Origin: a virus
Direction: 5' to 3' (one strand)
DNA length: 33,292 nucleotides
Virus record (IMG/VR): IMGVR_UViG_3300037558_000714
Location: 1 to 33,292 of that record
How positions within the stretch are numbered: the first letter of the stretch is position 1; each line of letters opens with the position of its first letter. This document shows, piece after piece, positions 2,067-32,895 of the stretch. The notes beneath the pieces were generated by a model. That model made no database searches, was not told the origin of the DNA, and saw only the letters and a program-made list of their open reading frames with translations. Both the position numbers and the translations under genes were made by a program.

Positions 2067-4022
2067 ATGACCAGAGCTAGAGATCTCGCCGATAGTGCAG
2101 ACAAGGATATTGCGGGCACACTCACCCTAGATGCCGTCAATGCAAGCGGTGTAGTCACAGGTTTAACTGTTGAAGCGACAGGCGATACTGCTGCTGGTGA
2201 TAATGCAGCTATGGGTTATACTGCTGCTGAAGGTTTGATCCTAACAGGTCAAGGCTCTACAAATGATGTGACCATAAAGAATGATGCAGATGCTGATGTT
2301 ATAGAGATACCCACTGGTACAGTAAATGTTACGATGGCGGGTACTCTTGGAGTCACAGGTGTAGTCACAGCCAACGCTGGTGTTGTTGTAGATAACTTTA
2401 CGCTTGATGGAACTACTCTGACTTTAAGTTCTGGTGTTTTCGGCATAGTGAATAACGACATTAGGTTTAAAACATCAGGTGATGAAACGATGTTACGTGC
2501 TGTAGCTGATGGTTCTGTTGAACTTATGCACGATAATGCTACTAAACTCTCCACTGAAGCTGATGGCATTGACGTAACAGGTTATATTGATTATGGCCCG
2601 TCCTCTGGAAACATTGGTAAGATAGGTTCGGACAGCAATAACATCTATATTAGTGCAAGCAGTAACGCAGGTGAGGTAATCTTTAGAAACAATGTTGGTT
2701 CTACTGATGCACCACACGCTTCTGGCACTAACAAATTTGTTATTGGAGATAACGATATAAGAACACCCACATCAGGTACATCTAACGTAAGACTTGGTAC
2801 AAACGCAGGTAACTCAATAGCCTCTGGCGGTGACTTCAACGTCTGTGTGGGCGATGAGGCAGGAACGGCTATAAGTACGGGTCACCTTCATACGTTTATT
2901 GGTTATGGTGCAGGTGATGCTGTTACTACGGATGAAACAGGTCTAACGGCTGTTGGTGCAAATGCTCTTACTTCAAATACTTCTGGAACAGACAATCTGG
3001 CTATAGGAGTCAGTGCGTTAGAAGATTGCACAGAAGGTATTGGCAACATAGCCGTGGGTAGATATGCTGCTGCGGATATAGTTGATGCAGATGGTAATGT
3101 AGCCATTGGTGCTTTTGATGGTACAGTTCAACCTGCGATGCGTCTTAACACTAAGTCTCACGACAATGTTGCAATCGGATCAGGAGCTTTAGCTGCTCAT
3201 AATCTTACTGATAATTCTTCTGGAGGCAATGTAGGAGTAGGATATAGTGCAGGACTACAAGTCACATCAGCTATAGCAGGAACTTTTATAGGATTCCAAG
3301 CTGGAGCAAATGTAACCACAGGAAACACAAATACCTTTGTAGGGGCTAGTTGTGGGGTAGGTGATCCTTCTAATAAACTTACTGGAGCAAATAACACAGC
3401 ATTAGGTCAAGGTGCTGCTCAAAACCTTGAAGGTGCAGGCAATGGCAATACTTGTATAGGTAGAGATTCAGGAACTGCAATCACGACAGGTGTTTCTAAT
3501 GTTACACTTGGATACTTAAATCAAGTTTCAAGTGCAACAGTTTCAGCAGAAATAGTAATTGGTCCAGGAGTCACAGGTAGTGGTGGTAGCACTGTTACTA
3601 TAGGTTCTGGTGCAGGTAAAATTTCCAATACTTTTACTTCAAATGCTACTTGGTCACAGTCATCTGATGAACGGCTAAAAATAAATATACAAGATGATAC
3701 TCTTGGGTTGTCTTTTATAAACCGACTAAATCCTGTTACTTACAAATGGAAACCAAGCCCAGAAATTGATAAAAGTCTACCTTACTATAAAGAAACTAAC
3801 GAAAGAAACACTGATGTAACTATGCATGGTCTAGTTGCACAACAAGTTAAAACAGCTTTAGATGCCGAAGGTGTTGATACTTTTGCAGGTTGGGGAGAGG
3901 GGCTAGATGGTGTTCAAACAATTAGCCGTGAAATGTTTGTTTCTCCATTAATTAAATCCATACAAGAACTATCAACTAAACTAGATGCAGCACTCGCTCG
4001 TATTGCAACACTGGAAGGATAA
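2067..4022 (+). CDS. Tail fibre with YadA-like head repeats and S74 domain
   Basis: This 651-residue virion protein has three parts. Residues 1-230 are a Thr/Val/Asp-rich beta region starting MTRARDLADSADKDIAGTL, typical of phage fibre N-termini that attach to the tail. From about 235 to 520 there are repeated segments of the type NVAIGxxAL, NTFVGxxCG and NTALGQGAA, resembling the YadA-type left-handed beta-roll. From about 531 comes SSDERLKINI followed by YKWKPSP and MHGLVAQQV, an S74 chaperone with a longer insert than in the upstream fibre, then a coiled coil ending ARIATLEG. The domain order implies a trimeric, self-processed receptor-binding fibre. AAAAGGA lies 11 bases before ATG. It is probably a second adhesin with a different receptor from the first, which is inference from the divergent shafts. 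Confidence 0.85.
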   Translation: MTRARDLADSADKDIAGTLTLDAVNASGVVTGLTVEATGDTAAGDNAAMGYTAAEGLILTGQGSTNDVTIKNDADADVIEIPTGTVNVTMAGTLGVTGVVTANAGVVVDNFTLDGTTLTLSSGVFGIVNNDIRFKTSGDETMLRAVADGSVELMHDNATKLSTEADGIDVTGYIDYGPSSGNIGKIGSDSNNIYISASSNAGEVIFRNNVGSTDAPHASGTNKFVIGDNDIRTPTSGTSNVRLGTNAGNSIASGGDFNVCVGDEAGTAISTGHLHTFIGYGAGDAVTTDETGLTAVGANALTSNTSGTDNLAIGVSALEDCTEGIGNIAVGRYAAADIVDADGNVAIGAFDGTVQPAMRLNTKSHDNVAIGSGALAAHNLTDNSSGGNVGVGYSAGLQVTSAIAGTFIGFQAGANVTTGNTNTFVGASCGVGDPSNKLTGANNTALGQGAAQNLEGAGNGNTCIGRDSGTAITTGVSNVTLGYLNQVSSATVSAEIVIGPGVTGSGGSTVTIGSGAGKISNTFTSNATWSQSSDERLKINIQDDTLGLSFINRLNPVTYKWKPSPEIDKSLPYYKETNERNTDVTMHGLVAQQVKTALDAEGVDTFAGWGEGLDGVQTISREMFVSPLIKSIQELSTKLDAALARIATLEG

Positions 4023-28065: not shown

Positions 28066-28092
28066 ATACATCCACTCCCTAGGATATTATCT

Positions 28093-28129
28093 ATGGTTAT
28101 TAAGTCATTACCTTTGGTATGGTTATTAA
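28093..28129 (+). repeat. Direct repeat near attP
   Basis: ATGGTTATTAA occurs at 28093-28103 and 28119-28129, 26 bases apart, about 100 bases from the tRNA-like core. Such pairs often serve as integrase arm-type sites. The rest of the 28072-28335 gap has no ORF. A palindrome CCAAAT-tg-ATTTGG lies at 28302-28315. Confidence 0.4.
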
Positions 28130-28223
28130 TAAAAACAATAACTTAGTGTCTAATAAAGTGCAGGTTCGTAGCCTCAATCAATGTTATTGCCCCTAACTAT
28201 ATAAAAACAAACAACTTTCTTGG

Positions 28224-28263
28224 ACCCTGAAGGTCGTAGGTTCAAATCCTACTCCCGCAACCA
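28224..28263 (+). other. attP: Probable attP core: 3' end of an initiator tRNA (fMet)
   Basis: The stretch reads as the 3' part of a tRNA. An anticodon-stem 3' strand CCTGA precedes the variable loop AGGTC. The T-arm is GTAGG-TTCAAAT-CCTAC (28236-28252), then acceptor strand TCCCGCA, discriminator A and encoded CCA (28261-28263). The combination CCTGAAGGTCG...GGTTCAAATCC...CCCGCAACCA is characteristic of bacterial tRNA-fMet. No 5' half exists upstream and the flanks are phage genes, so this is not a functional tRNA. Phages that integrate in tRNA genes carry exactly this 3' segment to restore the gene, and the integrase lies about 1 kb away. Confidence 0.8.
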
Positions 28264-28335
28264 ACTGACTGATTTTACTATAAATTATTTTTCAAAATAC
28301 CCCAAATTGATTTGGTTTGGTTATAATTGGTCGAC

Positions 28336-29073: not shown

Positions 29074-29222
29074 GAATGTGTGTCCTTTTCGTTTTTTCTT
29101 AACTCCACCCTGATGCACGTAACTAAATCTATCATACGTTCAACAATGGGTTGTACGGGTAGATTAGTTATAGCTTGTAGTTCTTTTTCTAAAGCTGCTC
29201 TAGCCTCATTTATATTGGTCAT
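29070..29222 (-). CDS. Small protein between int and thyX (50 aa)
   Basis: ATG 29222 overlaps the integrase TGA (ATGA), and the frame ends in TGA at 29072-29070 inside the TTG of thyX. The product, MTNINEARAALEKELQAITN..., is helical and charged with one cysteine (about residue 36). The double start/stop overlap shows it is part of one translated operon. The role is unknown. Small proteins beside int can be excisionases, but this one has no visible DNA-binding motif. Confidence 0.62.
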   Translation of the reverse strand: MTNINEARAALEKELQAITNLPVQPIVERMIDLVTCIRVELRKNEKDTHS

Positions 29223-30322
29223 TTTCTGTACCTTTGTAGTCTTTTATTGCTGGCATTGGTTGCCATTATAGAGGTTTTTTTAACGTAGACATTTACAACA
29301 TCTCTGGATGTATGGCCTGTTAAAGCCATTATCTCATCTTCTGTACAACCAGCTTCACCAGCTTCTGTTGCACCCGTTCTACGCAAGTCAGAAATTTTAA
29401 GTTCTTCAGGTAAACCAGCGGCTTTCCGAACTTCTGCCACAGCTTTATACGCCCATTTAGTATAGGGTCTTCCAGTGCGCTCATTAATAATTATAAAATC
29501 AGAACCGTTGCCTCTTTTTAAATTATGAAGACGTGTGTCAATAAATTCATTTGTATCCAAAATCATTAAATTGCCTTTAGGTTTTTTTACTGTGCGGCTT
29601 TTTTCTTGTACAAAAGTAAAAGTTCCATTTTCATAGTTATTCCAGGTAAGTTGACGCATATCACCAACTCGCTGACACAAATGGTAGCAAAGCAAAGCAA
29701 GTGTGCCGATTGAAGAGACATTCATTTCATCTGCTTTTTTAACAAATGCATCTATATGCTCTTCTTTCCATCGAACATCACGGGACGGTAGGGTTACTAA
29801 CCCCATTTTAGAAAAAGGATTAGAACGAGTGCGTCCTAAACGAAAACCAACAAACCAAACACGTCTAAGAACTTTGCATACATGGACTGCTCTATGTTCA
29901 CTTACATCCTTACACATTTGTGCGTGTAAAAGTTCAGCGGTTTCAGCAGTAATGTTTTGGTGAAAGGTTTCGCCGAAAGTAATATTAGAATTTCCAACAC
30001 GACAGTTACAAATGTACGTTAGTAACTGTCTGTAAGTGTTTTTACTATTTACAGATAAACGGCTCCAATTACTGGTTTGATAAAAGGCAGTAATTAACCC
30101 TGCAACAGAGCTTTCAGTAATATGTATCTGTTTATCTATGCCACGTTTATAATCTCTGTACTGTTTTTCAAAATCTAAGCATCTTTGAGTAGCTTCTTTT
30201 TTGTTGTTAAAAGATTCATAAGTAAGAAATAACTTTTCACGGAGCGGTTTACTAGGATTTGCACCCCAAGTAACAACTCCCTTTTTACTTATATGTTCTT
30301 CCAGGTATTTTATATTTGCCAT
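29219..30322 (-). CDS. int: Tyrosine recombinase integrase
   Basis: I start at ATG 30322 (GGGAG 8 bases upstream), giving 367 residues. The N-terminal part (1-70) is Lys-rich and AP2-like, and the core-binding SAM-like domain spans about 75-170. The catalytic domain shows Arg I in LCQRVGDMRQLTW, a beta-hairpin Lys (VQEKSRTVKKPK), ISDLRRTGATEAGEAG (box II Arg, with Ser where many integrases have His), LTGHTSRDVVNVY (GH and nucleophile Tyr), and then a C-terminal helix. It would integrate the phage at a host tRNA gene using the nearby attP. A TTGACT element on the - strand at 30384-30379 could belong to its promoter. Confidence 0.9.
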   Translation of the reverse strand: MANIKYLEEHISKKGVVTWGANPSKPLREKLFLTYESFNNKKEATQRCLDFEKQYRDYKRGIDKQIHITESSVAGLITAFYQTSNWSRLSVNSKNTYRQLLTYICNCRVGNSNITFGETFHQNITAETAELLHAQMCKDVSEHRAVHVCKVLRRVWFVGFRLGRTRSNPFSKMGLVTLPSRDVRWKEEHIDAFVKKADEMNVSSIGTLALLCYHLCQRVGDMRQLTWNNYENGTFTFVQEKSRTVKKPKGNLMILDTNEFIDTRLHNLKRGNGSDFIIINERTGRPYTKWAYKAVAEVRKAAGLPEELKISDLRRTGATEAGEAGCTEDEIMALTGHTSRDVVNVYVKKTSIMATNASNKRLQRYRK

Positions 30323-30403
30323 GCTACAACTCCCTAAGTTATGCGAATAGGGATACATTAGTTATGGTCATTAGTAGAAGTCAAGTATTAAAATAAAAGC
30401 TTG

Positions 30404-30509
30404 CACTTTATAGAGTGATTAGTCTAAAGTGTCAGTGTGGGTAACTCCCTGCTCACGTTTTCACTTTGTTGGAATGCCCCTGGATCTTTATCGATCTGGG
30501 GGTTTTTTT
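30404..30509 (+). ncRNA. Candidate structured small RNA upstream of int
   Basis: This gap contains no ORF but has nested pairing on the + strand: AAAGTG (30426-30431) with CACTTT (30462-30467), enclosing GTG-t-GGG and CCC-tgct-CAC. A strong terminator (30477-30509) follows. AAAGTG can instead pair with CACTTT at 30404-30409, giving two exclusive structures. Every recognised upstream gene is on the other strand, so the terminator must serve a local + strand transcript. A weak promoter is TTGCAC (30401) and TCTAAA (30423), 16 bases apart. An alternative is an operator region with a leader attenuator. Confidence 0.45.
30477..30509 (+). terminator. Strong rightward terminator
   Basis: CCCCTGGATC-TTTATC-GATCTGGGGG, a 10-bp stem with two G-U wobbles, followed by seven Ts. 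There is no U-tract on the other strand. Confidence 0.82.
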
Positions 30510-30523
30510 ATAGAATCAGTCAC

Positions 30524-30545: not shown

Positions 30546-30563
30546 AAAATACTCGCACGTCAA
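30546..30563 (+). repeat. 18-bp direct repeat, left copy
   Basis: AAAATACTCGCACGTCAA is identical to 30803-30820. The two copies flank the 63-aa gene. Similarity continues to the left as TTA with one A of length difference. Confidence 0.85.
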
Positions 30564-30570
30564 TATGTTA

Positions 30571-30762
30571 TTAGGTCTTCGTAACATGAGCCACTATGTT
30601 GTATTCATACTTCTCTATGTCTGGGTCAGCAGGTAAACAAACCGCCTTGTTTAGTTCATCTAAATGTATGACGTAGTGATCGGTCGTGTCTTCTTCAGTG
30701 CGCTGGGCAGCATCCACTAGAGCTTCTCCAATCTCTTTTGCGATTTCTGGTTTTAGTATCAC
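30571..30762 (-). CDS. Small acidic protein (63 aa), GTG start
   Basis: The gene starts with GTG at 30762, with AAAGGA 9 bases upstream, and ends before a leftward terminator. The product has an amphipathic helix (ILKPEIAKEIGEALVDAAQRTEED), then beta-like segments (DHYVIHLDELNKAVCLP, YEYNIVAHVTKT) and one cysteine. It is acidic and likely cytoplasmic. It is a separate single-gene unit enclosed by exact 18-bp direct repeats and oriented against the accessory operon to the right. Function unknown. A small regulatory or anti-host protein is possible. Confidence 0.6.
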   Translation of the reverse strand: MILKPEIAKEIGEALVDAAQRTEEDTTDHYVIHLDELNKAVCLPADPDIEKYEYNIVAHVTKT

Positions 30763-30802: not shown

Positions 30803-30820
30803 AAAATACTCGCACGTCAA
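30803..30820 (+). repeat. 18-bp direct repeat, right copy
   Basis: Identical to 30546-30563, in the same orientation, and directly upstream of the 63-aa gene's leader. Confidence 0.85.
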
Positions 30821-31017: not shown

Positions 31018-31041
31018 CTAAACAAAAAAGGACCAAACAAA
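31018..31041 (+). repeat. Shared leader/RBS element, copy 1
   Basis: CTAAACAAAAAAGGACCAAACAAA stands just before ATG. It shares AAACAAA(aa)GGACCAAACAA with 32211-32230 and 32683-32703. GGA is the Shine-Dalgarno core. Copies 1 and 3 also share the first codons ATGAAACTT. Confidence 0.75.
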
Positions 31042-31749
31042 ATGAAACTTCTAAACACTAACGCAAGTAATACTAAAATTATGAAAACCCAAAAGGGGAC
31101 GGAATACGAAATAGCGAGTCTTTCTTTAATGCCAGACTCTTTAATATGTCCGTCTCAAGTTATCGCCCAATGTAAAAAACCTTGTTTAGTTTTTGCTGGG
31201 CGGGGGCAAATGCATTCCGTTGCTAAGTCTAGGCAAAGCAAATCGGATTTATGGCATTCTGACAAATCGCTATTTTTGGAAACTCTAACTAAAGAAATGG
31301 CGGCATTTGTTACCAGGTGCAATAAGAGGGGAAAACTTGCCGCCTTTAGACTAAACACTATTTCGGATATTCCCTGGGAAAAGTACGGAATCCCGCAGCT
31401 ATTCCCCCAGGCTTTACTCTATGATTATACGAAACTTGCAGCCAGGTTAGGACGGACTCCAGACAATTATAAATTAATGTTTTCTTATAGTGCTGCCCCA
31501 AAATATCAAAACCAGGTTAAAGCAGCCCTAAAAACTAACGTACCTATCTCTGCGGTGTTTAGGGGGGGATTACCTAAAACGTATTTAGGGCGGCCAGTAA
31601 TAGACGGGGACAAATCAGATCTAGTTAATCTATATAGTGGTCCCGTTATAGTAGGACTCAAGTTGAAGGGCGGTAAAGCTATCCAGGCAAGCAAGAGTCC
31701 TTTCATTGTCGATAACCCAGAATTAATAGAATTAGTGGGGGCGGCGTAA
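31042..31749 (+). CDS. Conserved phage/plasmid protein with Cys cluster (235 aa)
   Basis: The 235-residue protein starts MKLLNTNASNTKIMKTQKG. It carries SLICPSQVIAQCKKPCLVFAGRG (about residues 33-55), with three cysteines in a CPxxxxxxxCxxxC array followed by AGRG. Next are VAKSRQSKSDLW, AAFRLNTISDIPWEK, and FPQALLYDYTKLAARLGR. This CP...C...C...GRG / RLN..SDI.WE / F.DYTK layout matches a family of phage and plasmid proteins of unknown function (I recall gp88-like or DUF7227). The spaced cysteines hint at metal or Fe-S binding. There is no signal peptide. It is the first gene of the rightward accessory operon, under shared leader copy 1. Confidence 0.7.
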   Translation: MKLLNTNASNTKIMKTQKGTEYEIASLSLMPDSLICPSQVIAQCKKPCLVFAGRGQMHSVAKSRQSKSDLWHSDKSLFLETLTKEMAAFVTRCNKRGKLAAFRLNTISDIPWEKYGIPQLFPQALLYDYTKLAARLGRTPDNYKLMFSYSAAPKYQNQVKAALKTNVPISAVFRGGLPKTYLGRPVIDGDKSDLVNLYSGPVIVGLKLKGGKAIQASKSPFIVDNPELIELVGAA

Positions 31750-32204: not shown

Positions 32205-32210
32205 TATTAG

Positions 32211-32230
32211 TTAAACAAAGGACCAAACAA
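32211..32230 (+). repeat. Shared leader/RBS element, copy 2
   Basis: TTAAACAAAGGACCAAACAA directly precedes ATG 32231. It decides the start of that gene over an upstream in-frame ATG at 32192. Confidence 0.75.
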
Positions 32231-32587
32231 ATGTTTACAATTGATCTACTAACCAACCCGCTTTTTATTATTGTTTATTTTTCTTCTACTATTCCATTAG
32301 CTTGGATTGTCTCAAGATTCATTATCAATACTCAAGATAAAAAATTACAAAAGAGATTAAAAGAAATTGCGAAAAAATCACAAGCACGAATAGCAAAAGA
32401 TAAAAAACGGCATGATGATTTTATGGCAGAAATAAATAATAAAATGGTTGTGGGCGATGCAAAATTTAAAGCCCTAATTGATTGCCCCAAATATCAAAAA
32501 CTAAAGCAAGGGATTAATTCCGAATATACCGCAATGATCCAAGGCAGAAATAAATTTAACGCTATGATCAAAGGGGGGCAATTATGA
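32231..32587 (+). CDS. Membrane-anchored coiled-coil protein (118 aa)
   Basis: Using the leader-defined ATG 32231, the protein has an N-terminal membrane segment (about 10-32, PLFIIVYFSSTIPLAWIVSRF). A long basic helix follows (DKKLQKRLKEIAKKSQARIAKDKKRHDDF), with a C-terminal polar part, and one cysteine at about residue 77. The cytoplasmic tail is strongly positive. It could be a small membrane-docking protein acting at the host envelope, such as superinfection control, but this is inference. Its TGA overlaps the ATG of the next micropeptide. Confidence 0.6.
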   Translation: MFTIDLLTNPLFIIVYFSSTIPLAWIVSRFIINTQDKKLQKRLKEIAKKSQARIAKDKKRHDDFMAEINNKMVVGDAKFKALIDCPKYQKLKQGINSEYTAMIQGRNKFNAMIKGGQL

Positions 32588-32682: not shown

Positions 32683-32703
32683 CTAAACAAAGGACCAAAC
32701 AAA
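32683..32703 (+). repeat. Shared leader/RBS element, copy 3
   Basis: CTAAACAAAGGACCAAACAAA is followed by ATGAAACTT, identical to copy 1 apart from two extra A residues there. Confidence 0.75.
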
Positions 32704-32895
32704 ATGAAACTTACTTTAAAACAAATTGCCGCAGAATTAGAATATTGCGCTGCAATATTTCGAAGCACTCCAGGGGATGACCTGGAAAAGATAAAGCATG
32801 ATTTGCAATCAAATTTAACTAATTCAATTGTAAATTATAATTATGACTCCCCATTGTGGAAGCATATTGAATCCACCAGGGGGCAAAGCAAATGA
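32704..32895 (+). CDS. Small unknown protein (63 aa)
   Basis: The product starts MKLTLKQIAAELEYCAAIF and is helical, with a short acidic loop (PGDDLEKIKHD) and an Asn-rich middle. The start is fixed by leader copy 3. The first helix QIAAELEYCAA vaguely resembles part of an HTH but no full motif is seen. Its TGA overlaps the ATG of the regulator gene (ATGA), so the two are probably co-translated. Confidence 0.55.
   Translation: MKLTLKQIAAELEYCAAIFRSTPGDDLEKIKHDLQSNLTNSIVNYNYDSPLWKHIESTRGQSK

Follow-up and report, generated by a model that had tools for sequence, protein, structure and literature searches.

Organization of the locus beside the integrase gene

The DNA analysed here (the window) comprises 33,292 bases of a virus record and encodes a tyrosine integrase, ThyX, a primase, a DNA polymerase A and a tail fibre; no tRNA genes were found in it. 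By integrase, the closest isolates are the Roseobacter phages CRP-235, CRP-212 and CRP-3, showing 43-47% identity, and this, together with the gene content, places the window among the HMO-2011-type phages. A search of cellular genomes did not retrieve any relative of the integrase gene, int. Phage CRP-3 belongs to subgroup III of the HMO-2011-type (PMC9038755) and uses a tRNA-Met gene of its host as integration site (PMC6918029). By position, the attP region of CRP-3 corresponds to approximately 28072-28335 of the window, which places it ahead of the primase gene rather than next to the int start.

The int gene (29219-30322, minus strand), whose start at 30322 was chosen from the position of the Shine-Dalgarno sequence and from relatives, runs leftward, and there is no plus-strand gene to the left of a strong plus-strand terminator, as a first, sequence-only reading of this DNA had noted. 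This intrinsic terminator (30476-30509) consists of an 11-bp stem at 30476-30503 and a T-run to 30509. Folding around the locus (30401-30509) likewise exceeds chance by far, with -40.7 kcal/mol for 30380-30515 (z -4.05) and none of 200 shuffles folding as well.

The terminator is preceded on the plus strand by a putative sigma-70-type promoter (30401-30428), with a -35 box TTGCAC (30401-30406), a 16-bp spacer and a -10 box TCTAAA (30423-30428). The -35 box is kept in the alignment of close relatives, and the best promoter score at the matching distance from the stem averaged 7.6 of 12 over 28 distinct relatives versus 7.54 for the largest of 100 shuffle sets, a modest excess that leaves the promoter as putative; it is also absent from the list produced by a general promoter scan of the window. 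A DNA dyad, CACTTTATAGAGTG (30404-30417; consensus CACTTNNTTAAGTG), lies over the -35 box and is kept in most close relatives, and could be a repressor site controlling the downstream RNA. With transcription starting 6-7 bases past the -10 box, we infer a small RNA (sRNA) of about 75 nt (30435-30509, plus strand), whose 5' end would be near 30435, at a conserved hairpin (30436-30457) with the C-rich loop ACUCCC (30444-30449), and whose 3' end would be set by the terminator.

Beyond the terminator, the next gene encodes a 63-aa product (gp01 of CRP phages; 30571-30762), is in the opposite orientation, on the minus strand, and is served by a separate leftward terminator (30545-30530). This gene is flanked by an exact direct repeat, AAAATACTCGCACGTCAA, at 30546-30563 and 30803-30820 (0.04 matches expected). 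Both copies are kept in relatives, and the right one, on the minus strand, supplies TTGACG as the -35 box in a promoter-like sequence; the pair is a possible paired operator. Further to the right, a leader of approximately CTAAACAAAGGACCAAACAAAATG recurs among the genes of the rightward operon (31020-31045, 32205-32235 and 32685-32707), and it also appears upstream of genes in relatives.

Conservation of the hairpin and terminator among related phages

Six relatives could be aligned over the stretch between int and the rightward operon, and the alignment shows, in this order, a conserved TTGCAC, the dyad CACTTNNTTAAGTG, the inner hairpin with its C-rich loop, the terminator and the opposite 63-aa gene. 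A unit of hairpin plus terminator occurs at the matching place in additional relatives, as well as in the isolates CRP-3, CRP-212 and CRP-235; indeed, HMO-2011-type phages with a related integrase usually contain it upstream of int. The sequence of the terminator varies among relatives while its form stays, and the hairpin stems differ wholly (for instance, GUGGGUA/UGCUCAC, GUAGUC/GACUAC, AGGCUA/UAGCCU, GGGUCU/AGACCC and GAAACA/UGUUUC) around a constant CUCC(C) loop. In a close alignment of eight sequences, stem covariation was 0.442, compared to 0.300 in shuffled alignments and at most 0.183 when the stem was slid. Co-variation, which the sequence-only reading had expected of its stems across related phages, is seen in the inner hairpin at 30436-30457; the outer AAAGTG/CACTTT stem that it had drawn is not conserved.

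A broader search with the integrase retrieved 80 loci, and we tested 81 int-upstream regions for hairpins with a stem of at least 6 bp and CTCC in the loop, using shuffles that hold CTCC in place. Such a hairpin was present in 50 of the 81 regions, which come from related sequences and are not independent, versus 5.0 ± 2.0 in shuffles. One of the 50, in L020, belongs to a terminator; leaving it aside, 28 distinct stems were counted, and this variety is a stronger argument than the counts of regions. The other 31 regions lack a hairpin at this threshold, although in several of them the motif sits on a stem that is weaker or has a longer loop. Likewise, when ten genomes were scanned blind for a hairpin with CTCC in its loop and a terminator after it, eight of them yielded a single site each, in every case next to int, and Markov controls yielded none. 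A covariance model, R1, recovered the int-adjacent hairpin from four of the searched genomes, although with 23 positions it is too short for wider use.

Comparison with relatives strongly supports a regulatory RNA gene, as had been suggested from the sequence of the window, and also backs its location, its structure and the constancy of its loop. No Rfam 15 family matched the window or 16 relatives at or above the gathering score, with only weak sub-threshold matches, and our searches of the literature did not retrieve any mention of a regulatory RNA in HMO-2011-type phages. The locus appears from these comparisons to be a stand-alone phage small RNA gene that is real, conserved and apparently undescribed. 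More distant relatives (L019, L021, L022, L023, L024 and L030) contain another conserved element upstream of int, approximately TACCCTGCGAGGGTCTTTAGCCCGAGC, and the four relatives scanned showed no Rfam match for it.

Predicted targets of the C-rich loop

Ribosome-binding sites with GGGAG are complementary to the CUCCC loop, which has the same core as the anti-Shine-Dalgarno end of 16S rRNA. An anti-Shine-Dalgarno action of the sRNA is likely. Among the 37 gene starts called in the window, the best match to the sRNA is the start region of int, where UAGGGAGUUGU (30326-30336, minus strand) shows 11-bp complementarity to GUAACUCCCUG of the sRNA, followed by the start region of the primase gene, with 8 bp (UAGGGAGU; 28074-28081, minus strand). 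Complementarity to int extends over 10 bp in relatives L011 and L085 and over 8 bp in L006. A second stretch of 10 nt, AGGGAGTTGT, within the int reading frame (30273-30282), is also complementary to the sRNA loop, perhaps by chance because it is not kept in L002.

Across the whole family, pairing of the sRNA with its own int was slightly better than with the int of other phages (p 0.03-0.056, or 0.12 with gapped duplexes), and the rank of int was accounted for by Shine-Dalgarno strength; we discarded int as a specific family-wide target. The earlier proposal that the RNA controls int is plausible for this window, but the family as a whole gives no clear sign of specificity, and int should be regarded as a good candidate target in the clade of the window only. 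In the literature searched, we found no sRNA acting on a phage integrase.

When 39 ortholog groups from ten genomes were compared, the best combined candidate was the start of the tail-fibre gene (p 1.2e-4, or about 0.005 after correction for the 39 groups with relatedness ignored; 0.065 for Shine-Dalgarno strength alone). The motif CAGGGAG was present at this start in all 11 sRNA carriers (L003, L007, L013, CRP-3, CRP-212, CRP-235, L153, L163, L164, L014 and L026; L164 and L026 were assigned by eye, the scan flagging neither beside int) and in none of nine non-carriers (HMO-2011, CRP-1, CRP-2, HTVC033P, CRP-738, CRP-13, CRP-207, HTVC115P and L195; isolates outside the clade were called from the context or absence of int and not from a whole-genome scan), in a post hoc comparison prompted by the target scan. 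In a DNA polymerase tree, non-carriers CRP-738 and L195 nest within the carrier clade, so that two concordant changes in the sRNA and in CAGGGAG are likely. The sequence of a third non-carrier inside this clade, L174, does not include the tail-fibre start, and that of the window phage itself falls outside the window. Among 44 distinct tail-fibre starts on further contigs, 22 also have CAGGGAG, but these contigs stop short of int and cannot be scored for carrier status.

The loop could instead act mainly on host mRNAs, or sequester a host RNA-binding protein, leaving phage mRNAs aside. The conservation of the loop while pairing with the own int is not clearly specific would fit this possibility, and so would the regulation of host genes by alphaproteobacterial anti-Shine-Dalgarno RNAs (PMC10746234). 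However, the tail-fibre site goes with the presence of the sRNA, and there are 10-11 bp of complementarity to int in the clade of the window, and we consider a primarily host-directed role unlikely, if still worth weighing.

Other readings of the locus and a possible role for the RNA

The sequence-only reading had also offered a leader attenuator that would act on the rightward operon by alternating between two foldings. A promoter-like site and a terminator, both on the plus strand, would suit such a leader, but neither folding is conserved. The AAAGTG of the nested outer stem is missing from the aligned relatives, except for AAAGTA in the closest one; the upstream CACTTT (30404-30409), its alternative partner, is part of the dyad CACTTNNTTAAGTG over the -35 box; and AAAGTG (30426-30431) overlaps the putative -10 box, so it is probably not part of the sRNA. 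Additionally, the next plus-strand gene starts some 530 bp beyond the terminator, past the oppositely oriented 63-aa gene, and attenuation seems to us very improbable. Equally hard to sustain is the idea of a terminator that only insulates two divergent units from each other, the folds upstream of it having arisen by chance: intergenic intrinsic terminators are common, but a CTCC-loop hairpin in 50 of 81 regions when 5 are expected, the covariation of its stem and the lack of the hairpin plus terminator in any control genome argue against it. Lastly, although the locus adjoins int, there is hardly any likelihood that it forms part of attP or contains integrase binding sites instead of an RNA gene, because the att primers of CRP-3 (MK613345; PMC6918029) fall at 2829-3662 of that genome, on the upstream side of the primase gene and over 2 kb away from where the sRNA lies, and because stems that change with pairing kept point to an RNA.

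Short phage RNAs participate in lysis-lysogeny control, such as OOP in lambda, sar in P22 and c4 in P1/P7 (PMC12197685). Unlike these, the sRNA (30435-30509) lies approximately 85 bp from the inferred start of the int mRNA, on the other strand, and overlaps neither int (29219-30322) nor its inferred 5' UTR; it is, therefore, not a cis-antisense RNA of int of the OOP/sar type. Nor did we find support for RNA-based immunity as in P4, another idea of the initial reading, the RNA being more like a trans-acting anti-Shine-Dalgarno sRNA.

In this respect, it would work like the alpha-r14/NfeR1 and cuckoo RNAs of Alphaproteobacteria. With alpha-r14/NfeR1 it shares a kept C-rich loop with an unpaired anti-Shine-Dalgarno core on stems that vary freely. 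The loops of NfeR1 pair with the translation start of ntrB and occlude it, which silences this gene (PMC10746234). Nevertheless, NfeR1 is chromosomal and contains three hairpins, each with an unpaired CCUCCUCCC, whereas the phage sRNA is encoded beside int and has a shorter motif in one main C-rich hairpin, followed by the terminator. The Cuckoo/CcsR RNAs of the Rhodobacteraceae, from the same bacterial group, also have C-rich loops. CcsR RNAs are processed from a transcript that includes a DUF1127 gene (PMC10253847); at the locus there is no upstream plus-strand gene, and the proteins encoded nearby lack a DUF1127 domain. From prophage BTP1 of Salmonella, STnc6030 pairs with the tailspike mRNA and gives superinfection exclusion (PMC12197685), resembling our case as a phage sRNA with a tail-gene mRNA as target, here a predicted one.

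In all, we regard as reasonably probable that the locus is a stand-alone gene for a trans-acting anti-Shine-Dalgarno sRNA that blocks ribosome entry on phage mRNAs of the GGGAG type. Transcription from the sigma-70-type promoter, divergent from int, would produce an RNA of about 75 nt with a short CUCCC-loop hairpin, a linker and the intrinsic terminator. We infer that its loop would pair in trans with phage mRNAs containing GGGAG ribosome-binding sites, and would reduce their initiation by analogy with NfeR1; the candidate targets, predicted from complementarity and through helices that are each short, would be int and primase in the clade of the window, and the tail fibre, with its CAGGGAG start, across the group. 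Repression of int would favour lysis, and that of the tail fibre might restrain late expression or lead to superinfection exclusion, as with STnc6030. It is possible, if rather doubtful as a whole, that temperate HMO-2011-type phages contain an undescribed family of anti-Shine-Dalgarno sRNAs that silences their own tail-fibre and integration or replication genes, and that the loop and the ribosome-binding site of the tail fibre coevolve, as an RNA switch for lysis-lysogeny or superinfection exclusion.

If true, such a switch would operate in a virus group that is dominant and widespread in the ocean (PMC9038755), and it would be a case of a phage using an anti-Shine-Dalgarno sRNA design known from alphaproteobacterial hosts. 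The conserved RNA gene sits beside the integrase gene in phages that have been cultivated, among them CRP-3, which integrates into its host (PMC6918029), and this makes RNA control of the phage life cycle testable.
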